Of a stretch of DNA of 64,000 nt, positions 32,233-58,115 are shown in pieces. Under the pieces are notes generated by a model. That model was given only the letters and a program-made list of their open reading frames with translations, ran no database searches and had not been told where the DNA came from. A program made the translations under genes and the position numbers. Source of the stretch: Methylocella tundrae (GTDB lineage: Bacteria > Pseudomonadota > Alphaproteobacteria > Rhizobiales > Beijerinckiaceae). The stretch spans positions 2,266,501-2,330,500 of the forward strand of contig NZ_CP139089.1 in the NCBI RefSeq assembly GCF_038024855.1. Reading direction: 5' to 3'. Within the stretch, counting starts at the first letter, position 1; the number at the start of each line of letters is the position of its first letter.

Positions 32233-32753
32233 GATCCCGCGCTCCTGGCAAAGTCACGGCGCGACGCGCCAATGATGAGACGGCTAGGGCTCATTCCGCG
32301 TTTCCTCCTGCAAAAGCGCCGCTCTTGCTGGCGGCGACAGAAGTATACGTGATCATCCTAAAAACGCAATCTTGTATACGCAACCAGCGCGAAAAAGATC
32401 CAGGCGCGCGGGCGAACTGTAACTTCGCAAGCCAGCAAATCCTTTTGATTTGATCCATGCGACAGCCGGGCGAGCTATTCTATGTCTCCAATTTATTGAT
32501 TACACGGTGCTTTATGCCACTCATCGATAAGTTTGACCGAGCTGGATAAGATTAAGCTCGCGCTTGGAGCAGCTGGGAATACGTAAGCGGAGCTGTCGGC
32601 TTTTTACGGACTTTGTGTATACGGCGTATTGATTTTCTCATATTTTTGTATACAACACGAGCAGGCGCGGCGCCTGACGCGGCGGCCGAGGGCGCCGGCA
32701 CATTGGCCGTCGCCCGAAGCCCGCGCCAACCAATGAATGTCGAGGGGCGAAGC
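32233..32753. promoter_or_regulatory. 521-bp divergent control region of the malonate locus
   Basis: No gene is present. Four copies of GTATAC occur at 32343-32348, 32374-32379, 32617-32622 and 32648-32653, two before each arm. The last is a perfect TTGTATACAA (32646-32655), close to the operator I recall for Acinetobacter MdcY. A minus-strand promoter for madL can be read as TTGCGT (32364-32369) and TATACT (32342-32347) with a 16-bp spacer. On the plus strand TTGATT (32629-32634) with TACAAC (32651-32656) is possible for mdcA. Operator copies overlap both -10 regions, consistent with repression. Confidence 0.7.
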
Positions 32754-34400
32754 ATGAGCCAATGGGGCGCGGAGCGGGCGGCGCGGGCGCAGCGGATCAC
32801 AGCGGGGGCATCGCTGGCGGCGGGCAAGATCGTCGGCGTGGACAAGGCCGTTTCCCTTCTCGAAGCGGTGATAAAACCCTTCGATCGCGTCTGCCTCGAA
32901 GGCGACAATCAGAAACAGGCGGATCTGCTCGCAAGGGCGCTCGCGGACGTCGACCCGGCCAAGATCCACGATCTCCATATGGTGCAGTCGGGCGTCGTGC
33001 TGCCCGAGCACCTCGACGTCTTTGAAACCGGCGTCGCCAGGCGGCTCGATTACGCTTATTCCGGCCCGCAGGCGGCGCGCATCGCGAAAATGCTGTTCGG
33101 CGGCCAGATCGAGCTTGGCGCCGTCCATACCTACCTCGAGCTGTTCGCACGCTACTTCATTGATCTGACCCCCAATGTCGCGCTGATCGCGGCGGTCAGC
33201 GCGGACCGCAACGGCAATCTCTACACCGGACCCAATACGGAGGACACTCCGACCGTCGTCGAGGCGACGGCCTTCAAGAGCGGCGTCGTCATCGCGCAAG
33301 TGAACGCTATCGTCGACAAGGTGCCGCGCGTCGACATCCCGGGCGACCGCGTTGATTTCGTCATCGAGGCGCGTAAACCCTTTTATGTTGAGCCGCTGTT
33401 TACGCGCGATCCCGGCGCCATCACCGAAACGCAGATCCTCACCGCGATGCTGGCGATAAAAGGCATTTACGCCCCCTATGGCGTGAAGCGGCTGAACCAT
33501 GGCATTGGCTTCAACACGGCGGCGATCGAACTGTTGCTGCCGACCTTCGCCGAGCGTCTTGGCCTCAAAGGCAAAATTGCGACGCGCTGGGCGCTGAACC
33601 CGCATCCGACATTGATTCCGGCGATCGAATCCGGCTTCGTCGAGCAGATCCATTGCTTCGGCTCCGAGGTCGGCATGGATGATTATATCGAGGCGCGCTC
33701 CGACATTTATTTCACCGGGCCCGATGGATCGCTGCGCTCCAACCGCGCCTTCTGCCAGACCGCCGGGCTTTACGCATGCGACATGTTCATCGGCTCGACC
33801 CTGCAGATCGACCTCAACGGCAACAGCTCGACGGTCACGACTTCGCGCATCGCCGGCTTTGGCGGCGCGCCGAACATGGGTTCCGACGCACGCGGACGGC
33901 GCCATCCAAGCCAGCCCTGGCTACAGGCTGGCAAGGAGGCGGACCCCGACGGCAGCCCCGCTCTGCGTCGGGGCCGGAAACTCGTCGTCCAGATCGGTGA
34001 GACCTTTGGCGAGGGCAATGCGCCGACATTCGTTGAAAAGCTCGACGCCATCGCGCTCGCCGAAAAACTGCATCTCGATCTGGCGCCGGTGATGATCTAC
34101 GCCGACGATGTGACCCATATTGTGACCGAGGAAGGAATCGCCAATCTCCTCCTCTGCCGCGACAGGGATGAGCGCGAACAGGCCGTGCGGGGCGTCGCGG
34201 GTTATACAGAAGTCGGCCGCGGGCGCGACGCCAAAATGGTGCGGCGCCTGCGCGAACGCGGCGTCATTCAGCGCCCGGAAGATCTTGGCGTCGACGTGCT
34301 CGACGCCGACCGCAGCCTGCTCGCGGCGCGATCAATCAAGGACCTTGTGCGCTGGTCGGGCGGTCTCTACCGGCCGCCGTCGAAATTCCGCAACTGGTGA
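32754..34400 (+). CDS. mdcA: Malonate decarboxylase alpha subunit (malonate:acetyl-ACP transferase)
   Basis: A 548-residue CoA-transferase-fold subunit that exchanges malonate for the acetyl group on the MdcC carrier. Family segments include RVCLEGDNQKQADLLARAL, TPNVALIAAVSADRNGNLYTGPNTEDTP, GFGGAPNMGSDARGRRHPS and YADDVTHIVTEEGIANLL. The length matches MdcA. The ATG at 32754 follows GAGGGG and agrees with family N-termini. First gene of mdcACDEGBH. Confidence 0.96.
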   Translation: MSQWGAERAARAQRITAGASLAAGKIVGVDKAVSLLEAVIKPFDRVCLEGDNQKQADLLARALADVDPAKIHDLHMVQSGVVLPEHLDVFETGVARRLDYAYSGPQAARIAKMLFGGQIELGAVHTYLELFARYFIDLTPNVALIAAVSADRNGNLYTGPNTEDTPTVVEATAFKSGVVIAQVNAIVDKVPRVDIPGDRVDFVIEARKPFYVEPLFTRDPGAITETQILTAMLAIKGIYAPYGVKRLNHGIGFNTAAIELLLPTFAERLGLKGKIATRWALNPHPTLIPAIESGFVEQIHCFGSEVGMDDYIEARSDIYFTGPDGSLRSNRAFCQTAGLYACDMFIGSTLQIDLNGNSSTVTTSRIAGFGGAPNMGSDARGRRHPSQPWLQAGKEADPDGSPALRRGRKLVVQIGETFGEGNAPTFVEKLDAIALAEKLHLDLAPVMIYADDVTHIVTEEGIANLLLCRDRDEREQAVRGVAGYTEVGRGRDAKMVRRLRERGVIQRPEDLGVDVLDADRSLLAARSIKDLVRWSGGLYRPPSKFRNW

Positions 34401-34411
34401 GGAGCGGACCA

Positions 34412-34729
34412 ATGGAAAATCTCACATTTCGTCATAAAGCCAGAAAGCCCGCATCGGGAACGAAGCGCGAGGCGATCGTCGGCGTCGTCGCCTCCGGCAA
34501 TCTCGAAGTGCTGGTCGAGCGCATGCTGCCGGATGAGGATTGCCTGATCGACGTCGCCACCGCCGCGCATGGCTTCGGGGAAGTCTGGTCGGCGGTCGTC
34601 GCCGATTTCGTCGAGCGCTATTCGCCCGGAGGATTGCGCATGTCGATCAATGATGGCGGCGCGCGGCCGGATACCGTCGCCTTGCGGCTCGCCCAGGGGC
34701 TGCGGCTGATCGAGGAGGAAAGCGCTTGA
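34412..34729 (+). CDS. mdcC: Malonate decarboxylase acyl carrier protein (delta subunit)
   Basis: A 105-residue acyl carrier protein. The Ser that carries the 2'-(5''-phosphoribosyl)-3'-dephospho-CoA group lies in VVASGNLEVLVE. The C-terminal half (RYSPGGLRMSINDGGARPDTVALRLAQGL) is typical of MdcC. A GGAG ribosome site precedes ATG 34412, 11 bp after mdcA, and the stop overlaps the TTG start of mdcD. Confidence 0.94.
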   Translation: MENLTFRHKARKPASGTKREAIVGVVASGNLEVLVERMLPDEDCLIDVATAAHGFGEVWSAVVADFVERYSPGGLRMSINDGGARPDTVALRLAQGLRLIEEESA

Positions 34730-35646
34730 GCGCCTTGCTGAACGCCAATCCCGCCCTTGTGAGCTGGTACGAGGCGAGCGCCCGCGCGCGCATCGCGGGC
34801 CTCGTCGATCCCGGCAGTTTCCAGGAATTCATCGGCCCGGCGGAGCGCGAAGAAAGCCCGCATCTCGATATCTTCGACCTGCCCAAGCAGTTCGACGACG
34901 GCATGGTCGTCGGGCGCGGGACGCTCAAAGGCAAAAAATTTTTCATCGCCGCGCAGGAAGGCCGCTTCATGGGCGGCGCCTTCGGCGAAGTGCATGGCGC
35001 GAAGCTTGTCGGGCTTTTGCGCGCCGCCCGCGCAAATGTCAGCGACGTGCTCATCCTGTTCGATACGGGCGGGGTTCGGCTGCAGGAAGCGAACGCCGGG
35101 GAACTGGCGATCGCTGAAATCATGCGCGCAGTCCTTGACTTGCGCGCCGCTGGCGGGCGCGTCATCGGACTGATCGGCGGCCGCGCCGGCTGTTATGGCG
35201 GCGGCGGATTGATCTCCGGCTGTTGCAGCGCTCTTGTGGTCTCCGAGCAAGGCCGCATCAGCGTCTCAGGCCCCGAAGTGATCGAGACCAACAAAGGCGT
35301 CGAGGAATTCGATTCACAAGACCGCGCGCTCGTCTGGCGGACGATGGGCGGCAAGAGCCGCCGCCTGCTTGGCGTCGCCGACGGTTTTGCCGATGATTCG
35401 ATCGAGAGTTTTCGCCAGGCGGCGCTGGAACTGATCCAAACCGCTCCGCGCTTCGATCTCGCCTCCATGCTGGCCGAGCAGGCGCGGCTCGAACAAAGGC
35501 TGGAGCGCTTCGGCGCCTGCGCGGACGCGACGGAAATCTGGGCCAAGCTCGGCGTCGCCGCGCCCGAAAAAATTCCCGACATGGAAACCGACGCCTTCAT
35601 CGAGATCGCCGACAAGGTTCAGGAGAAAAGCCATGACGCCCGATGA
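34726..35646 (+). CDS. mdcD: Malonate decarboxylase beta subunit
   Basis: A 306-residue carboxyltransferase-fold subunit which, with MdcE, decarboxylates malonyl-S-ACP to acetyl-S-ACP. Family features are SPHLDIFDLPKQFDDGMVVGRG, GGAFGEVHGAKLVG, DTGGVRLQEANAGELA and RISVSGPEVIETNKGVEEFD. The start is TTG at 34726, supported by GGAGG at proper spacing and by overlap with the mdcC stop. Downstream it overlaps mdcE by 14 bases. Confidence 0.95.
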   Translation: MSALLNANPALVSWYEASARARIAGLVDPGSFQEFIGPAEREESPHLDIFDLPKQFDDGMVVGRGTLKGKKFFIAAQEGRFMGGAFGEVHGAKLVGLLRAARANVSDVLILFDTGGVRLQEANAGELAIAEIMRAVLDLRAAGGRVIGLIGGRAGCYGGGGLISGCCSALVVSEQGRISVSGPEVIETNKGVEEFDSQDRALVWRTMGGKSRRLLGVADGFADDSIESFRQAALELIQTAPRFDLASMLAEQARLEQRLERFGACADATEIWAKLGVAAPEKIPDMETDAFIEIADKVQEKSHDAR

Positions 35647-36361
35647 AATCCTGGCCTCGCTCTTTCCCCAAGGCCATGATGTCGTGGTCGACGATGAAGG
35701 GCTTGTCTTCGGTTCGGGGCCTTCAGAAAACGGCGCCCGCACTGAAGTGATCGGCATTGCGCACAGGGCCGCGCTCGGCGTCGACGGCGCGGTGAAATTG
35801 GCGCGAAAGGTGCTGGCGGTCATCGAGGCGGGCCACACGGGGCCCCTGCTCGTTCTCGTCGACAGCGACAGCCAGCGCATGAGCAAGCGCGACGAGATGC
35901 TGGGCCTCAGCGAATATCTCGCGCATCTGTCAAAAAGCCTCATTCTCGCTGATCTCCGCGGCATAGCGACGATCGGCCTGCTCTATGGCCACACCGCCGC
36001 AGGCGCCTTCATCGCCACCGCGCTTTCGACGCGCGTTCTGGTCGCCCTGCCGGGCGCCGACCCCGAAGTGATGGACCTGCCATCCATGTCGCGCGTGACG
36101 AAGCTTTCAATCGACGTGTTGAAAGAGAAGGCGAAATCGACCCCCGTCTTTGCGCCGGGGCTCGATAATCTCGCGCAGACCGGCGCCGTGCTCGAAAGCT
36201 GGGACCCGAATAAATCGCTTGCCGCGCAGCTATCGGAGCTGCTTCAACGCCAACCGACCGCCGGCGATCACCGCGACGCCCTCGGCAAGGCGCGCGGCGG
36301 GAGACCCAAAGCCGCGGACATAGCGTTGCGCGTCCAGTCCCTCGCGGCCAGCGATGTCTGA
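35633..36361 (+). CDS. mdcE: Malonate decarboxylase gamma subunit
   Basis: A 242-residue carboxyltransferase-fold partner of MdcD. Recognisable parts are LVLVDSDSQRMSKRDEMLGLSEYLAHL, YGHTAAGAFIATAL and MDLPSMSRVTKLSIDVLKE. The ATG at 35633 has AGGAGAAA upstream and overlaps mdcD. The stop overlaps mdcG by 8 bases, so the two catalytic subunits and the activation enzymes are translated from one coupled message. Confidence 0.95.
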   Translation: MTPDEILASLFPQGHDVVVDDEGLVFGSGPSENGARTEVIGIAHRAALGVDGAVKLARKVLAVIEAGHTGPLLVLVDSDSQRMSKRDEMLGLSEYLAHLSKSLILADLRGIATIGLLYGHTAAGAFIATALSTRVLVALPGADPEVMDLPSMSRVTKLSIDVLKEKAKSTPVFAPGLDNLAQTGAVLESWDPNKSLAAQLSELLQRQPTAGDHRDALGKARGGRPKAADIALRVQSLAASDV

Positions 36362-37076
36362 TCGTTTGTTCGCGGCGTGGGGAACGCCAGCTTCGCCCGC
36401 GCGCCACGCGCTGCTTCGCGTCGAGGCGCAAGCTTACGCCTTGATGCTCGCCGAGCGGCCGGACCTCACGGACCCGCTCTTAAAAGATTGGGTGCTGGCG
36501 GACCGCCCGCTGATCGCCCGCCGCCGCGCGCCTTGCGACGCAAGAGACCTCGTTCCGGCCGGCATTCCGTTGCCGCCCGCGCATGGCAAGAAGCGCATCG
36601 CCTTGCAACTCGCGCCCGGCGCGATTTTGAGCCTTGAGCCGCCGCCGCTCCTCGCCGATTGCGCAGCCTTCGCGCCAGCAGGGTGGCGCCCGGCGATCGA
36701 GGCGATCTTCCACTTTTGCAATGGCGTTGGCGTTGAGCCGCGCGTTTTCGGCGCCCTTGCCTGGTCCGCCCTGACAGGCCTCGATTATTTGAGCCCCTCC
36801 TCCGACCTCGATCTTCTTTTCGCCGTCGCGCCCGACGCTGACGTCGCGGCGCTGCTTGAAGGGCTGGCGCGGATCGAGGCCGGCGCTCCCATGCGGCTCG
36901 ACGGAGAGATCCTCCGGCTCGATGCGGGCTTGGCGGCAAACTGGCGCGAACTCGCCGCTGGAGCCGAAGAAATCCTGGTCAAGACCATCAAAGACGTCGC
37001 TCTATGGCCGCGGCGCGCATTCCTTACTCCGGGCGTCGCGACTCGGGGAGCGCGAGACTGGCGCGCCGCCTCGTGA
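36354..37076 (+). CDS. mdcG: Phosphoribosyl-dephospho-CoA transferase (holo-ACP synthase) MdcG
   Basis: A 240-residue nucleotidyltransferase-fold enzyme that attaches the prosthetic group to apo-MdcC. The catalytic Asp pair is visible in LSPSSDLDLLFAV near residue 150. NGVGVEPRVFGALAWSALTGLDYL and KDVALWPRRAFL are typical of the family. It overlaps mdcE at its start and mdcB at its end (GTGA). Confidence 0.93.
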   Translation: MSDRLFAAWGTPASPARHALLRVEAQAYALMLAERPDLTDPLLKDWVLADRPLIARRRAPCDARDLVPAGIPLPPAHGKKRIALQLAPGAILSLEPPPLLADCAAFAPAGWRPAIEAIFHFCNGVGVEPRVFGALAWSALTGLDYLSPSSDLDLLFAVAPDADVAALLEGLARIEAGAPMRLDGEILRLDAGLAANWRELAAGAEEILVKTIKDVALWPRRAFLTPGVATRGARDWRAAS

Positions 37077-37993
37077 GCGCCGCGCTTGCTCTGCGCGTCA
37101 GCCCGGAAGCGCCCCAAAACCCGGCGAGCGGCGAAAAGGCCGCCTTGACGCCGGAAGCGATCGGCGCGCTCGCCACGGCCTGTCTTCGCCTCGAGGTCGA
37201 CACCTGGCCAAAGCCCGGCCTCGTCAGCCATGTCGATAATGGCAGCCACGCCGATATGGACGCCGCTTTGCTTCATCGCAGCGCGGGTGTTCTTGAACCG
37301 TTTTTTGCGGCGATCGCAAAGGCCGCCGGCGCCGGCGCCGATATGGATCGCCTGCGCGGCGTCGGCATGGCGGCGGAAGCCGAGATGCTGGCGGCGACCG
37401 GCGGCGTCAACACCCATAGAGGCGCGATCTTCGGCCTTGGCCTCCTTTGCGCCGCCGCCGCCTTGCGCAACGCCCGCGAACCAACGCTTGGCGCGACCGT
37501 CAGCCGCCGTTGGGGGCGGGCGATCCACGAGGGCCCCGCCGCGCTGCATAGCCACGGATCGCGGGCCGGCCGCAGATATGGCGCGAGCGGCGCGAGGGGC
37601 GAAGCGGCGACGGGATTTCCAAGCGTTTACATGTTGGGCGCGCCCGCTCTCGACGAAGGCCTAAGGCTTGCGCCGCATGATCTGGAAGCCGCGCGGGTGC
37701 AGGCGATCTTCGCGCTCATCGCTGGCGTCGCGGACACCAATATTCTGCATCGCGGCGGCGCCGAGGGCCTCGCCTTCGCGCAAAGGCGCGCGGCGGAGTT
37801 TCTGGACCGGGGCGGCGTCGGCGCACCAGGCTGGCGCGAAAGCGCCGCCCGCGTCCATGACGAATTTGTCCTTCGCCAGCTCAGCCCCGGCGGTTCGGCT
37901 GATCTGCTGAGCATGAGCCTCTTTGTCCGCGCGGTCGAGCGACCTGCCCGATCCGTGCGGAGCGAATTCGATCATGCGCGCGAGGCGCAATGA
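37073..37993 (+). CDS. mdcB: Triphosphoribosyl-dephospho-CoA synthase MdcB
   Basis: A 306-residue CitG/MdcB enzyme that makes the prosthetic-group precursor from ATP and dephospho-CoA. The core is LEVDTWPKPGLVSHVDNGSH and ATGGVNTHRGAIFGLGLL, with DTNILHRGG late. The start is GTG at 37073 overlapping the mdcG stop; an in-frame ATG at 37004 inside mdcG is less likely. The stretch RAGRRYGASGARGEAATGFP matches the conserved Gly-rich segment before the late helices. It overlaps mdcH by ATGA. Confidence 0.92.
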   Translation: MSAALALRVSPEAPQNPASGEKAALTPEAIGALATACLRLEVDTWPKPGLVSHVDNGSHADMDAALLHRSAGVLEPFFAAIAKAAGAGADMDRLRGVGMAAEAEMLAATGGVNTHRGAIFGLGLLCAAAALRNAREPTLGATVSRRWGRAIHEGPAALHSHGSRAGRRYGASGARGEAATGFPSVYMLGAPALDEGLRLAPHDLEAARVQAIFALIAGVADTNILHRGGAEGLAFAQRRAAEFLDRGGVGAPGWRESAARVHDEFVLRQLSPGGSADLLSMSLFVRAVERPARSVRSEFDHAREAQ

Positions 37994-38931
37994 CGCTCGC
38001 CATCCTCTGCTCGGGCCAGGGAACCCAGCATCGCGACATGTTCGCTCTGACGGCGGACGCGCCGGAAGCCGCCGGCGTCTTCGCGGCAGCGACTGAGGCG
38101 CTCGGCTGCGATCCACGCGCCTTCGTTCATGAAAGCAGCGATGCGACGATGCACGCCAACGCGGCCGGGCAAATTCTTTGCGTGACGCAGGCGCTCGCGG
38201 GCTTCGCGGCTCTCACGTCTGTCGTCGAATCCCTTTCCGGACGCACCACGATCGCGGGCTACAGCATAGGGGAGCTGGCGGCCTGGGGCTGCGCGGGGCT
38301 TTTTACACCGGCGGCGACGATTGATCTTGCTCGGCAACGGGCGGCGATGATGGATGAAGCGGGCGCTCCCGGCGATGGCCTCGCCTTCGTCCGCGGCCTC
38401 CACGGCCAGCGCATCGACGCGCTCTGCGCGCGTCACGCTTGCGCCGTCGCCATCATCAACCCCGGCGAAACCTTTATTCTCGGCGGCGATCGCATTGAAC
38501 TCGGCGCGTTGTGCGATGAGGCGCTGCGCCAGGGAGCCTCCAAGGCGGGCGCGCTCAAAGTCAACGCCGCCTCTCACACCCCCCGCCTCAAAGCCGCCAG
38601 CGCGCGCTATCGCCAAGCTTTAGCGGCAGAGCGGCCGCTGCAACGCCCACCGTCGCGCATACGCCTCATCAGCGGCATTGACGCCGCGGCCGTGCTGAAT
38701 GTCGAAGCGGGGCTCGACAAGCTCGCCGCTCAGATTTCGCAAACGATCGACTGGGCGGCCTGCCTTGAGGCCTGCGTCGAGGCAGGCGTCGATAGATTTA
38801 TCGAGCTTGGCCCCGGCCGGGCGCTAGCGAATATGACGAGCGAGGCCTATCCCAAAATCCCGGCGCGCGGTCTCGAAGATTTCCGCGGTCTTGATGGGGT
38901 CAGAGCCTGGCTCGCGAAAAGTCAGGGCTGA
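37990..38931 (+). CDS. mdcH: Malonate decarboxylase epsilon subunit (malonyl-CoA:ACP transacylase) MdcH
   Basis: A 313-residue acyltransferase of the FabD type that loads malonate from malonyl-CoA onto the carrier. The oxyanion motif CSGQGTQHRDM and the nucleophile motif AGYSIGELAAWG are intact, and ASHTPRLKAASARY and FIELGPGRALANM follow in the usual order. Last gene of the mdc series; its ATG overlaps the mdcB stop. Confidence 0.94.
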   Translation: MTLAILCSGQGTQHRDMFALTADAPEAAGVFAAATEALGCDPRAFVHESSDATMHANAAGQILCVTQALAGFAALTSVVESLSGRTTIAGYSIGELAAWGCAGLFTPAATIDLARQRAAMMDEAGAPGDGLAFVRGLHGQRIDALCARHACAVAIINPGETFILGGDRIELGALCDEALRQGASKAGALKVNAASHTPRLKAASARYRQALAAERPLQRPPSRIRLISGIDAAAVLNVEAGLDKLAAQISQTIDWAACLEACVEAGVDRFIELGPGRALANMTSEAYPKIPARGLEDFRGLDGVRAWLAKSQG

Positions 38932-53387: not shown

Positions 53388-54644
53388 ATGATGGAGATCA
53401 TGCTCCAGCTTATTGATAAGACACGGATTGAGCCTTTGAAGGAATCGCGCCGCGCCGCCGCTTTGATCGCCGCTCTGCTGGCCGCGCTGTTCATGGCGGG
53501 GGCCGCCGCCGCCGGCGCGTCAAAGGGCGAGCTGCCCATACCGGCGGCGACGCTCGCGCTGATGGCGGCGCGCGACACGACGCCCGACGCCCCGATCCTG
53601 ATGCGCGCCTACAAGAAAGAATCGGAGATCGAGGTCTGGAAGCTGAACAAGAGCGGACGTTATGTCTTCCTGAAAAGCTTCCCGATCTGCCGCTGGTCGG
53701 GCGCGCTGGGACCGAAGACACGGCAGGGCGACCGCCAGACGCCGGAGGGCTTCTACGCCGTCGGGCCGCACCAGATGAACCCCTATTCGCACTATTACCT
53801 TTCCTTCGACACCGGCTATCCGAACGCCTATGACCGCGCGCACGGCGGTTCGGGGTCGGACGTTATGGTGCATGGCACGTGCTCCTCGGCCGGATGCTTC
53901 GCCATGACCGACAGGCAGGTCGCGGAGATCTTCGCCCTCGCGCGGGAGGCGCTGCGGGGCGGCCAGAGCGCCTTCCAGTTCCAGTCCTATCCTTTCCGCA
54001 TGAGCGCGCAAAACATGGCGCGCTACCGCTCCGACCCCAACATCGCCTTCTGGCGCGAATTGAAGGAGGGGTCCGACCGGTTCGAGGCGACGGGCGAGGA
54101 GCTCGACGTCAGCGTCGTCAACGGCCGCTACGCCTTTGCGCCCTCGAAGGACCCGGCCAACGAGCTTCTCGCCGCCGCCCGCCATGCGCGCGAGCAGGCG
54201 CGCGTCGCCGCCTTCATCAAGGAGGGAAGCGCCGCCGTGCGCACGACCTATTCGGACGGCGGGCAGAACCCCTATTTCGCCGCGCTGCTGCGCAAAGGCG
54301 CCCATGTTGGCGACGTCAGCCGGCCGGAGGCGCTCGCCTTCGCCGGGGTGGACGAGGTTCTCTCTCCGGCACGAGGCGTTTGCGCGCGCAAGGGCGGCTG
54401 TCCCGACGCGATCGGCAGGGGACCGGAAGCCACGAAGGCCGCGGCGGATCAACCGAGGATGGACGCGCCGGCGGCGGACCAGCCGCGGATCATCCTCGCG
54501 GCGGCTCGCGTGGCGCCGATGCCGCAAACCGAACCGATAACCCTCGCCCCGGCGCCGTTTTGCTATAGCCTCGGACGCCCGGCGCCCCCGCAATCCACCA
54601 TCGCGGGCGGCATGCCGGTGCTGCCGGCGGTTTGGTTCGATTGA
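53388..54644 (+). CDS. L,D-transpeptidase family protein (YafK-like)
   Basis: A 418-residue protein anchored or exported through an N-terminal hydrophobic segment (about 23-43). The YkuD catalytic domain occupies about residues 60-215, with the active-site motif HGTCSSAGCFAMTD near residue 165, as in YafK/DpaA-type enzymes that act on peptidoglycan-protein or peptidoglycan cross-links. The C-terminal ~200 residues are low-complexity and Pro/Ala-rich, with an exact short duplication of AADQPR. The start is one of three close ATGs from 53388. Confidence 0.88.
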   Translation: MMEIMLQLIDKTRIEPLKESRRAAALIAALLAALFMAGAAAAGASKGELPIPAATLALMAARDTTPDAPILMRAYKKESEIEVWKLNKSGRYVFLKSFPICRWSGALGPKTRQGDRQTPEGFYAVGPHQMNPYSHYYLSFDTGYPNAYDRAHGGSGSDVMVHGTCSSAGCFAMTDRQVAEIFALAREALRGGQSAFQFQSYPFRMSAQNMARYRSDPNIAFWRELKEGSDRFEATGEELDVSVVNGRYAFAPSKDPANELLAAARHAREQARVAAFIKEGSAAVRTTYSDGGQNPYFAALLRKGAHVGDVSRPEALAFAGVDEVLSPARGVCARKGGCPDAIGRGPEATKAAADQPRMDAPAADQPRIILAAARVAPMPQTEPITLAPAPFCYSLGRPAPPQSTIAGGMPVLPAVWFD

Positions 54645-54914
54645 GGGTTTCGGTTTGATGTCGCTTCCCGACCCGCTGGGGTCATAGGACGGCCCGTTAC
54701 GCGATCTCTGGAACGGACGTTCAGCGCCGGTCGACGCCGACGGCTTCGCGCGCGTTTGGGCAGTAGCGGCGACCATAGCCATTTCTCCAAGTGGACGTCC
54801 GCTCTAGGCAGTTCAAAGCTTAAACGGGGCCTGAAGGCAGACGTGGGCTTTTCGGCCAAAATGACCGGTCCGGAAGTTTGTGTTGCGACCGGCGCCAAGC
54901 ATTTTGCGCTAGCA

Positions 54915-57149
54915 TCATTTGTTCAGCGTGTCCGCCATGCTCCACAATGGATCGGTCGACGATCTGAGCTGCTCAAGGATCGTGGTGATGCGGGGACCTT
55001 GGCTGCGGCTTGGACTATAGATCCATCCCTCGTCACCTTTGTGCCTCGTCAAAATCTCTTCCTGCATTAGTATATTTAGAATTGATGAGGCTAATTTCTT
55101 CGATGCGCCCGCACCGAAACCGCGCAACAATGCCTCTTCCTTGCGCCCAGCGCCTTTTTGCTTGAATGTTTTCTTCAAAATAGCTACAAAAATCTCGTGA
55201 GCTGGTGAAAGGCCAGCTTTCTTAATTTGGGCAACGGTCTGAACACTATCAAAGCGGTCAACTGTCTCAAGCTGCACCCAACTTGGAAGTCCCGCATACG
55301 AAGCAGCTCCAGATACTGAGCCGGCAAGAGACTTCGAGATCGTGAGATTCGTCGGCGGTGAATTCGGTAACACCAGCCGTTCAATCGTAGCTTCCGAAAT
55401 GACCAAATTGCCGAGAGGTGTGTTGTTTAGGGCAAGTTCTGTGAAAGCCCCTCCGGTGATGTTCAAGCCTTGCATGTCAACACTCGCTGTGTCGACACGC
55501 GTCATGGCGCTCGTAATGTCAGCAGCTAGAGTAGGGTTCTGCCTCGCGCTAGCTCTGCTGGCTATCTGTCGGTACGGTTCGATGCGCCCTTTTATATCGA
55601 CCGCAAGAATAGTTTGGCCGAGGGTCCCTAGAGGGTTGATCCAATTTTCGGTGAATACGTGTTGTCGTTTTGCTTCATCGATCTCTGGCAGGCCTGCGAC
55701 GTCCTTTGCTCGTAGCCCATCGAGAATGAACATGTCGACGAACTGCCGGTCCTGCGACTCAGCTCCAATTCGACCCAAACTCGGTAGTCTCTGCAACATT
55801 GCAGAAGCTTCCTCGACGGGCAGTTGTCCTACAACGGCCTCGAAAGCGTCTTGTAAATCTCTTTGTGAGATAGGACCGATATTTGCGGGCCGCCTTCGTG
55901 TTATCCGACTAAGAGCCACAAAAACGCGGTAGATAGTATCTGCATCAAAGAACGCATTAATGCGCGCGTCTCGTTGGCACACCACTTTCATGAAGTGGTT
56001 CCAAAACTCGACTCCCTCGCTAGTTATACCAAACATGCTACCTAGTTCGTCATCGGAGAGAAGCGCTATCGTCTGGCAAATTAGGGGTCTTTTGGGTAGC
56101 CACGATGGTAGCTCCACAATTAGACCAGCAGCATCGAAATAAGCTTCGAGTTCGTCACTGGTGAACTCGTCCTTCGCTTTGACGATAACGGCATTGGCTT
56201 TCGTCAAGCCCAAAGCAGTCATCATCTCCTCGTTCGAGGAAAAATAGTGCTCTCGCCCTGCTACAAGACAGCCGGACTTCGTTTTCCCGACGAGATCCTT
56301 CACTCCCTTGAGCGCCCGTGCACGCAGTTGGCGCAATCTGCTTTCATCTGTGCTCCAAGATTGACTACCTAATTCGTCAAATCCGTCCAAAAGCAGAATA
56401 AGACTGTCCCGGTTCAGTGCCCGTACCGCAGGCCCTGCGAGATCATCTAAGCCGAGGAGAGTGATGCCTCGGCGCACAATTTCATCGGCCCGGTCAAGGC
56501 CCCAACATTCTCTCAGGTTTACCGCGAAGGGGAACTTAAAAGTCACGTTCCAATTCTCAGCTAAAGCATTAAATACCTCGCGAACGCATCGGCTTTTGCC
56601 TGCGCCAAATTCGCCGAGGAGAATGACATTGCGGCCAGAAAGCAGGATCTCCGCGAGATCAGCGATACTTAACTCTTTTCCTCCATCAACACGCTCATAC
56701 ATCACAGGGACGTAGCTAACGGCGTCGACACGACCCGTGATGGGGTCGATGGAGCTTCCAAAAGACGCTGCAACTCTAGCGTTCTTGTAGATCGGAAACT
56801 GGAAGAAAAGTGCAGCGAACTGGCCTGCCGAACCAACAGTAAGCTTGGCTGCTGTCGCTGCATCTAACATGGCCTGCGTTGGGACCTTGCTCAACACGAT
56901 ATAACCTCGGAGAAGGACGCCTTCAGCACTGAGCGTCTGGCGGGCCAAGGTCATACGAGTTATGCCTTGCCTGACCTTTTCGAGGTCGTTCTGCTGGCTA
57001 ATCTCGATAACGACTGTCTCGAGCTCTCCGCGTTGTATGACTCCATCAAAATTTACGCCAGCGATTCGACCGGGCAAACAAGGCTGCCAAAATATTAGTT
57101 CGGCGATGCCGCGAACTTGTTCCTCGAATGTCTTCCACTTTGGTTGCAT
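54915..57149 (-). CDS. NACHT-domain STAND ATPase with N-terminal nuclease-like domain (candidate anti-phage NLR)
   Basis: A 744-residue protein. Residues 5-115 resemble a PD-(D/E)xK nuclease fold (Asp35, then Glu49 in VVIEISQ, with Ser51 where Lys is expected). Residues 155-330 form a NACHT-type ATPase: Walker A GEFGAGKS at 179-186, the NACHT Walker [10 protein letters not shown] at 252-260 and a sensor Arg in [11 protein letters not shown] helical region follows, then a short beta-rich stretch with pentapeptide-like spacing (about 555-610) and a C-terminal winged-helix-like part (ending near residue 740). Base and codon use are less GC-rich than both flanks (ATA, CTA, GTA codons), which indicates transfer. 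The ATG is set by GGAAGAG. No partner gene is adjacent, so the protein probably acts alone. Function in phage defence is inferred from family. Confidence 0.8.
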
Positions 57150-57365
57150 AATTTCGCTCTTCCGCTTTCGGCCGGGTCCGCCGTACGCCGAATGTCCGGT
57201 TTTTCATCTTGCGCCCGCATAAAGGGCCAGTCCAGTTTCCGCCCTTCGCAGACATTCAAACTAAGCCCCGCTCTCCGCTCACGTCCGCATAGCCATTGCC
57301 TAAATCTGCCGCTATGGTCGCGCGTCCTTAAATCAACCGGCCCGCCGGCTCGAGCGCGAAAATTC

Positions 57366-58115
57366 ATGTCCGAAGAGACGCATTTCGGTTTTTCCCGCGT
57401 CCCCCTGCAAGACAAGCAGGCCCGGGTCGACGAGGTTTTCCACAAGGTCGCGTCGCGCTACGACCTGATGAACGATCTGATGTCCGCCGGCCTGCACCGC
57501 GTCTGGAAGGATATTTTCGCCGCAAAAGTCCATCCTTCGCGAAAGGCGCCGTTCCGCCATCTCGACGTCGCGGGCGGCACCGGCGACATCGCTTTCCGCA
57601 TCGCCAAGGCGGGCTCGAAGCTGACCGAAATCGTGGTGCTCGACATCAACGCCGACATGCTGGAGGTTGGGCGCCAGCGTGCGGCCAAGCGCCCTTTCGA
57701 CGCAAAGCTCGAATTCGTGCAGGCCAACGCCGAGGATCTGCCGTTCCCGGACAATTCCTTCGACGCCTATACGATCGCTTTCGGCATCCGCAACGTGCCG
57801 CGCATCGACGTCGCGCTGGCGGAGGCGCGGCGCGTCCTGAAACGCGGCGGCCGGTTTCTCTGCCTCGAATTCTCCAACGTCGACGTGCCGTTCCTCGACC
57901 GCCTCTATGAAGCCTATTCGTTCAGCGCCATTCCGCGCCTTGGCCAATGGGTGACGGGAGACGCCGACGCCTATCGCTATCTCGTCGAATCGATCGCGCG
58001 CTTTCCCGACGCCGAAAGTTTTCGCGACAAGATCGCCGCCGCCGGACTGGAGCGCGCCACATTCACGCGCCTTTCCGGCGGCGTCGTCGCTATCCATTCC
58101 GGCTGGAAGCTCTAG
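57366..58115 (+). CDS. ubiE: Demethylmenaquinone/ubiquinone methyltransferase UbiE
   Basis: A 249-residue SAM-dependent C-methyltransferase of ubiquinone synthesis. Family markers are [28 protein letters not shown], the SAM motif [27 protein letters not shown]-like AFGIRNVPR, and [14 protein letters not shown] at the C-terminus. The start at 57366 (MSEETHFGF) matches alphaproteobacterial UbiE. It is 61 bp before ubiB on the same strand and 216 bp from the divergent NACHT gene. Confidence 0.96.

Follow-up and report, generated by a model that had tools for sequence, protein, structure and literature searches.

A horizontally acquired NACHT gene of Methylocella tundrae as a likely one-gene phage defence with a PD-(D/E)xK-fold effector

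What would a lone NACHT gene beside ubiE do for Methylocella tundrae, and through which effector would it act? The gene lies in the 64,000-nucleotide stretch of DNA analysed here (contig NZ_CP139089.1, positions 2,266,501 to 2,330,500; 'the window') and encodes a protein of 744 residues. A first-pass annotation made from the letters alone had read it as a stand-alone defence protein with a degenerate nuclease-like N-terminus, its effector being either a variant nuclease or a domain that has lost catalysis. Our analysis makes it reasonably likely that the gene is a horizontally acquired, one-gene phage defence of the nucleotide-binding oligomerization domain-like receptor (NLR) type, with a PD-(D/E)xK nuclease effector whose lysine is displaced to residue K58.

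The N-terminus, when modelled alone, gives a confident PD-(D/E)xK nuclease fold, the predicted elements (helix 4–20, strands 25–29, 32–40 and 44–51, helix 56–75, strand 79–86) forming the α-β-β-β-α-β core; it was modelled separately, and the fold search with the whole protein barely tested this domain. Fold searches with the N-domain, which had been suggested as a check, returned mostly nucleases, including EndoMS, AF1548 and Cdn1/Can2/Card1, rather than a non-nuclease family, and a search of BFVD gave generic nuclease-like and unnamed matches. Pfam holds models for NA-iREase, the inactive restriction endonucleases, and none of them matched among the top 25 of 37 families for 33 members of the protein family.

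Among about 5.8 billion proteins, 400 matched as relatives at E ≤ 1e-3, and a profile search yielded 399; 103 of the best 120 of the 400 are 741–755 residues long. The family spans several phyla (including Novosphingobium, Burkholderia, Aeromonas, Bacteroidales, Mycetocola and Paenibacillus), and named close relatives are found in Sphingopyxis (76%), Novosphingobium (74%) and Bosea (71%, the gene being broken). Residues 1–130 alone matched 35 proteins of 629–831 residues (E ≤ 0.01), and since 34 of these were already among the relatives from the full-length search, no other partner architecture for the N-domain was seen at the sensitivity of that search. Conservation was read from a 200-row alignment of 164 proteins and 36 loci, the query included, which omits proteins of up to 650 residues as well as 10 of the 35 genome loci (L004, L005, L006, L009, L022 and L033, and the broken or cut L008, L028, L016 and L037). 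The rows of the alignment are not independent: six of those from loci are >98% identical to a protein row, and L057/L058 and L061/L062 are duplicate pairs.

The canonical (D/E)xK lysine, which would stand two residues after E49 (E+2), is absent throughout: this position, Ser51 in the query, is Thr in 143, Ser in 49, Ala in 5, Asn in 1 and Lys in none of 198 readable rows. D35, E49 and Ser51 are present as had been described, and the serine is misleading if taken as a lesion, Ser or Thr being found family-wide (192 of 198 rows). Since E+2 is never Lys, the catalytic lysine has probably been relocated to K58 (E+9), which the predicted model places on the helix following the E49 strand. Together with E9, D35 and E49 (Table 1) and R60 (188 of 199 readable rows), K58 belongs to a strongly conserved set: in the 192 rows left after removal of a six-member clade discussed below, the duplicate L007 and the chimera P0041, the counts are 189/189 for D35, 190/190 for E49, 191/191 for K58, 183/185 for E9 (two Gln) and 188/191 for R60 (P0084, P0100 and L038 differ). 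The plasmid, phage and IMG/VR loci in the alignment, eleven in all, likewise keep all five residues. We reject the reading of a degenerate effector in the window copy, because this residue set is intact and the domain is not visibly degenerate. By its sequence and predicted fold, the N-domain is probably a non-canonical PD-(D/E)xK member in which K58 would serve as the displaced catalytic lysine, as in some viral cap-snatching endonucleases; the catalytic lysine is reported to be deployed from a helix in Hantaan (K124) and influenza (K134), and from a strand in La Crosse (K94) (PMC4909276).

Catalysis does seem to have been lost, in a clade of relatives rather than in the query protein, for which the label 'degenerate' of the first-pass annotation is not supported. 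In P0061, P0066, P0067, P0069, P0070 and P0071, E9, E49 and R60 are lost in 6/6 and K58 in 5/6 (P0066 keeps it), with D35 retained in all six. A FastTree phylogeny of 195 members, computed from residues 130–744 only and without P0041, P0050, P0105 and P0153 (chimera or no N-terminus) and L007, a repeat of P0070, unites the six in a single clade with support 1.0; the nodes just below are weakly supported (0.18 and 0.43), and the tree does not fix the point of attachment. The loss of site residues is one evolutionary event and not six. For 8 of the 15 clade pairs, with NACHT identities of 0.61–0.64, N-domain identity is 0.34–0.44, as compared with a control mean of 0.538 (standard deviation 0.068; 801 non-independent pairs in the 0.60–0.65 bin), and the C-terminal identity of the same eight (0.53–0.60) is similar to the control mean of 0.552. 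Two further pairs have 0.65 for NACHT and 0.41 for the N-domain, and the closer pairs (NACHT 0.68–0.81) have N-domain identities of 0.36–0.64, below the control means where such bins exist. By these low identities, the N-domain is under less constraint here, and the six are probable natural nuclease-dead relatives, judging from their residues. The Sphingomonas sp. R-74633 gene (L007), as the repeat of P0070, represents this clade. D35 stays invariant within it despite the decay around it. The chimera P0041, mentioned above, is an interrupted copy that begins with transposase-like sequence (PF01609) instead of its own first residues.

The remainder of the protein is that of a NACHT/STAND nucleoside triphosphatase (NTPase), for which nucleotide-driven oligomerisation would be expected. 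NACHT is the sole Pfam module above its cut-off (E 2.3e-7; 31.2 bits against 26.7), and both Walker motifs, the second of the DGxDE type with the sequence LLLDGFDEL, are intact as first described: K185, D255, D258 and E259 are found in 200 of 200 rows, and the nucleotide-binding domain with its helical and winged-helix parts has a predicted NLR-like fold. The pentapeptide-like stretch that had been noted downstream is weakly supported, by (i) a match of the profile of 33 relatives to the pentapeptide-repeat protein 6fls (E 0.0022; profile positions 538–604), (ii) Pentapeptide_4 matches in 5 of 33 members at E ≤ 1 (best 0.022), and (iii) predicted strands over 557–633. The helix/strand pattern predicted over 649–713 is, by our reading of the model, of the winged-helix type, in agreement with the end first proposed. 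No sequence matches to PDB chains were obtained with the whole protein at E ≤ 1 or with the N-domain profile at E ≤ 10, and Pfam scans of the protein and 33 members recognised no LRR, CARD or PYD.

Table 1. Features of the NACHT gene and its insert, in window coordinates
Feature	Position	Strand	Evidence
NACHT gene, 744 residues	54915..57149	-	ATG at 57149; open reading frame (ORF) reading, Pfam
N-terminal PD-(D/E)xK-fold domain, residues 4–112, helix-strand-strand-strand-helix-strand	56814..57140	-	structure model, fold searches
E9, putative active-site acid, first helix	57123..57125	-	E in 183/192 readable rows
D35, putative metal ligand	57045..57047	-	197/197 readable rows
E49, putative metal ligand	57003..57005	-	190/198 readable rows
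K58, proposed helix-borne catalytic lysine (E+9)	56976..56978	-	192/199 readable rows
NACHT nucleotide-binding module with helical/winged-helix parts, residues 130–550, NLRC4-like fold	55500..56762	-	model, fold search
Walker A GEFGAGKS, residues 179–186	56592..56615	-	ORF translation, Pfam
NACHT Walker B, residues 252–260	56370..56396	-	ORF translation, Pfam
Pentapeptide-like beta stretch, residues 551–635, least conserved region, candidate sensor	55245..55499	-	model, profile match, conservation
C-terminal winged-helix-like domain, residues 636–744; about 660–677 strongly conserved	54915..55244	-	model, conservation
Stretch absent from same-species genome G129, GC 0.522	54752..57238		genome alignment

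The gene is foreign, horizontally acquired DNA. Its guanine-plus-cytosine content (GC) is 0.517, compared with 0.632–0.681 in eight neighbouring genes, and at third codon positions (GC3) it is 0.53, compared with 0.81 in ubiE. Counting its own genome each time, it is present in 1 of 15 genomes of the genus, in 1 of 119 sampled genomes of the family and, as a gene family at E ≤ 1e-40, in 5 of 385 sampled genomes of the class. The alignment with genome G129 of the same species ends at window position 54751 and restarts at 57239; in between, G129 carries different sequence, about 4.3 kb long, with ORFs that read as a molybdopterin oxidoreductase-like protein and a MocR-type regulator (L066:2365-6653). 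The genus and family counts and this gap rule out a conserved core gene, the outcome that would have spoken against the original proposal. With unrelated cargo at this site in G129, the interval beside ubiE has the look of an integration spot. G103 shows a gap of about 0.8 kb at the corresponding place, and it contains a 94-residue ORF of helix-turn-helix appearance. Among the 35 genome loci the gene is clearly broken in two (L008, L028) and has a stop near its end in one (L016), as expected for accessory DNA. In a separate observation, the second NACHT-profile match of the genome (L002, contig C1 of G000) is weak (23.4 bits, below the cut-off) and sits in a long frame matching the TraI relaxase in the PDB (E ~5e-6), which makes C1 a possible conjugative plasmid.

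No recurrent partner gene was found: across 44 loci (402 neighbour ORFs from a simple ORF caller) none is common to more than three, and the neighbour families found in three loci derive from related phages. Several chromosomal relatives lie close to housekeeping genes, which make up 7 of 10 neighbours picked for checking. In L006 and L022 (58% and 50% identity to the query) the gene lies directly downstream of uvrA, which suggests a recurrent chromosomal insertion point; PADLOC 'mad3/mad8' matches, considered as a partner system, were dropped, as they are UvrA itself (in L006, and by similarity in L022). One relative (L013) lies beside a SIR2-HerA pair. PADLOC tallies over 122 and 136 genome neighbours include restriction-modification, SIR2, HerA, PtuA and reverse transcriptase families, unassigned to single proteins; 20 neighbours were checked singly, and we claim no enrichment.

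Mobile elements carry the gene as well. Pseudomonas phage Haddon encodes a relative (CDS0030; 29% identity at 99% coverage) in the vicinity of genes for an excisionase and a methyltransferase, an Erwinia persicina plasmid has one with an integrase and a toxin-antitoxin pair close by, and nine IMG/VR loci hold relatives of about six kinds (L057 and L058 being one gene, to which L060 is close, and L061 and L062 being 99% alike). PHROGs was run on 58 of 66 listed viral neighbours (the eight of L058, repeats of those of L057, being omitted). The phage genes nearby are terminase and tail genes (L056), DNA polymerase (L057, L059), an integrase (L060), and terminase and portal genes (L061, L064); in L063, whose viral nature we do not vouch for, an acetyltransferase family was the sole neighbour family found. 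L061 has, in sequence, capsid genes, a terminase, a P2-type portal, the NACHT gene, a gene of 415 residues (no PHROGs match at E ≤ 1e-10) and the gpA-type origin nickase; L062 has the same portal, terminase and 415-residue gene, followed by three more ORFs and gpA. Both copies thus occupy the interval between gpQ, the P2-type portal, and gpA, which in P2-like prophages of E. coli is reported to be a hotspot for anti-phage systems (PMC9122126). Taken together, foreign origin, patchy occurrence, phage-borne relatives and the lack of a recurrent partner make the stand-alone defence system first proposed, and an anti-phage function, probable by genomic context.

As to the mechanism, the steps past the architecture would follow, by analogy with bNACHT25/32, a course of sensing, switching, nuclease activation and abortive infection. 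At rest, the protein would be kept closed by its NACHT ATPase; the C-terminal half, through the variable beta stretch, the winged-helix end or both, would sense a phage product or a phage-caused change, whereupon the NACHT module would swap its nucleotide and oligomerise. The oligomer would gather several N-terminal PD-(D/E)xK-fold domains, in which E9, D35 and E49 may bind metal and K58 on the following helix may replace the usual E+2 lysine, so that nucleic acid, DNA or RNA, is cut and phage multiplication is halted, probably by abortive infection.

We regard it as unlikely that the N-domain is instead a non-catalytic nuclease fold which, within an NLR-type defence, binds nucleic acid or protein as a decoy, sensor or oligomerisation device, with K58 being structural or a nucleic-acid contact. 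Such a domain would agree with the missing E+2 lysine (0 of 198 readable rows), with the persistence of the clade devoid of E9, E49 and R60, and with inactive enzyme domains featuring in some prokaryotic conflict systems (PMC7159879). However, the five residues are invariant or nearly so outside that clade, four of them decay largely together within it, as befits one catalytic site, and helix-borne catalytic lysines have precedent. A nuclease that cuts RNA, a variant contained in the reading we favour rather than exclusive of it, appears distinctly unlikely: the helix-borne lysine and the layout recall cap-snatching endonucleases, but Z-scores are higher for EndoMS, a DNA enzyme, and for AF1548 and Cdn1/Can2/Card1, with small differences, and the fold does not give the substrate.

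Two further explanations concern the role of the whole protein. The mobile relatives (phage Haddon, the nine IMG/VR loci, the Erwinia plasmid copy beside an integrase and a toxin-antitoxin pair) would suit cargo that serves selfish or counter-defence ends of phages and plasmids (e.g., a prophage that profits from excluding its rivals) and is chromosomal only incidentally. We consider this quite improbable, as the window copy lies between genes recognised as housekeeping with no phage gene recognised, and such cargo would mechanistically still be anti-phage exclusion. A STAND transcription regulator, whose C-terminal winged helix binds DNA while NACHT senses a metabolite, would account for the well-conserved winged-helix-like C-terminus and for the several relatives near metabolic genes; it is very improbable in view of the nuclease-fold N-terminus, the phage accessory positions, and the absence of any neighbour family from more than three of 44 loci, those in three being from related phages.

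Regarding the gene itself, the first-pass annotation gave no strand; the ORF is on the minus strand, and the plus strand over the same positions is rich in stops in the frame translated. By eye, a purine run, GGAAGAG, lies about 8–14 nucleotides upstream of the ATG. Of its neighbours, ubiE is divergent, with its start near 57366, and an L,D-transpeptidase-like gene is convergent, its end being at 54644; both are named by recognition. A promoter scan gave 0 sigma-70-type sites (1.4 expected) and the same scan 8 terminator-like matches (3.2 expected), an excess on which we place no reading; ARAGORN finds no tRNA in the window. PADLOC and NCBIfam scans of the protein gave nothing useful, the single PADLOC match being a P-loop match to mad8 (E 0.024). 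Elsewhere in the window, at 32613–38931, a malonate decarboxylase cluster was recognised by eye.

Bacterial NLRs are good models for how NACHT receptors convert detection into killing, and this family is compact (one gene, about 744 residues) and comes with a natural control in the related clade with a decayed nuclease site; a comparison of intact and decayed clades would test both the need for cutting and NACHT defence by another route. If K58 is indeed the catalytic lysine, the family would provide a cellular immune example of the displaced-lysine site of viral cap-snatching enzymes. It is tempting to go further, to a proposal that we give only a low chance: an undescribed lineage of bacterial NLRs with a cap-snatching-type E-D-E...K nuclease, possibly cutting RNA, which shuttles, one gene at a time, between chromosomes and the defence hotspots of phages and includes a catalysis-less clade acting by a non-nuclease route.

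Among known systems, Avs (AVAST) proteins are likewise STAND NTPases with an N-terminal effector, and PADLOC 2.0.0 includes Avs models; no Avs1-5 model matched the protein, whose single PADLOC match is the P-loop one to mad8 mentioned above. Animal NLRs (NLRC4, NLRP3) differ from it in that the window protein has a nuclease-fold N-terminus and, in the Pfam scans, no recognised LRR, CARD or PYD. EndoMS/NucS and the Can2/Card1/Cdn1 nucleases share the N-domain fold, but are activated differently, by mismatch recognition and by cyclic oligonucleotides, respectively, and EndoMS and Card1 have the canonical ExK lysine which the window protein lacks.

Closer in composition are the nuclease-STAND proteins of the P4 satellite hotspot, in which a STAND NTPase is likewise joined to an N-terminal nuclease (Mrr_cat or BpuSI_N) in a phage or satellite defence hotspot; they are set apart by description, C-terminal repeats, unlike the window protein's ending, being reported for them (PMC9122126). 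PD-(D/E)XK and NACHT systems have been newly reported in numbers (PMC13092281), and our literature search found no published description of the present architecture, which is weak evidence of absence as most subscription papers were outside its reach. It is plausible to call the family undescribed, the comparison with bNACHT clades being by descriptions and not by sequences. A DNA-level BLAST of Erwinia and Aeromonas members against E. coli genomes gave no match, a search blind to distant protein kinship with the E. coli bNACHTs.

Kinship may exist with clade 14 (bNACHT02/11/12, SNaCT C-terminus), which is described as ending in a short domain behind the NACHT module and in which an effector is not readily discernible (PMC12169576), since the window family, too, would look effector-less to sequence libraries; unlike there, the effector fold here appears in structure prediction. 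The closest described proteins are bNACHT25 and bNACHT32 of clade 6, compared by description only, which also combine an N-terminal PD-(D/E)XK effector with a central NACHT module in one gene, an organisation that the window protein shares with a motif variant at E+2. Their nuclease is needed for defence, and infection triggers DNA degradation that requires the PD-(D/E)XK residue D48 (PMC12169576). They differ in the E+2 lysine, absent here, and probably in their C-terminus, a helical NCH1 in place of the predicted pentapeptide-like beta stretch and winged helix; no NCH family matched among the top 25 of 37 Pfam families for the 33 members, and Pfam may hold no NCH1 model. By this analogy, the window protein most likely works like bNACHT25, and would be unusual mainly in where its nuclease lysine is placed.
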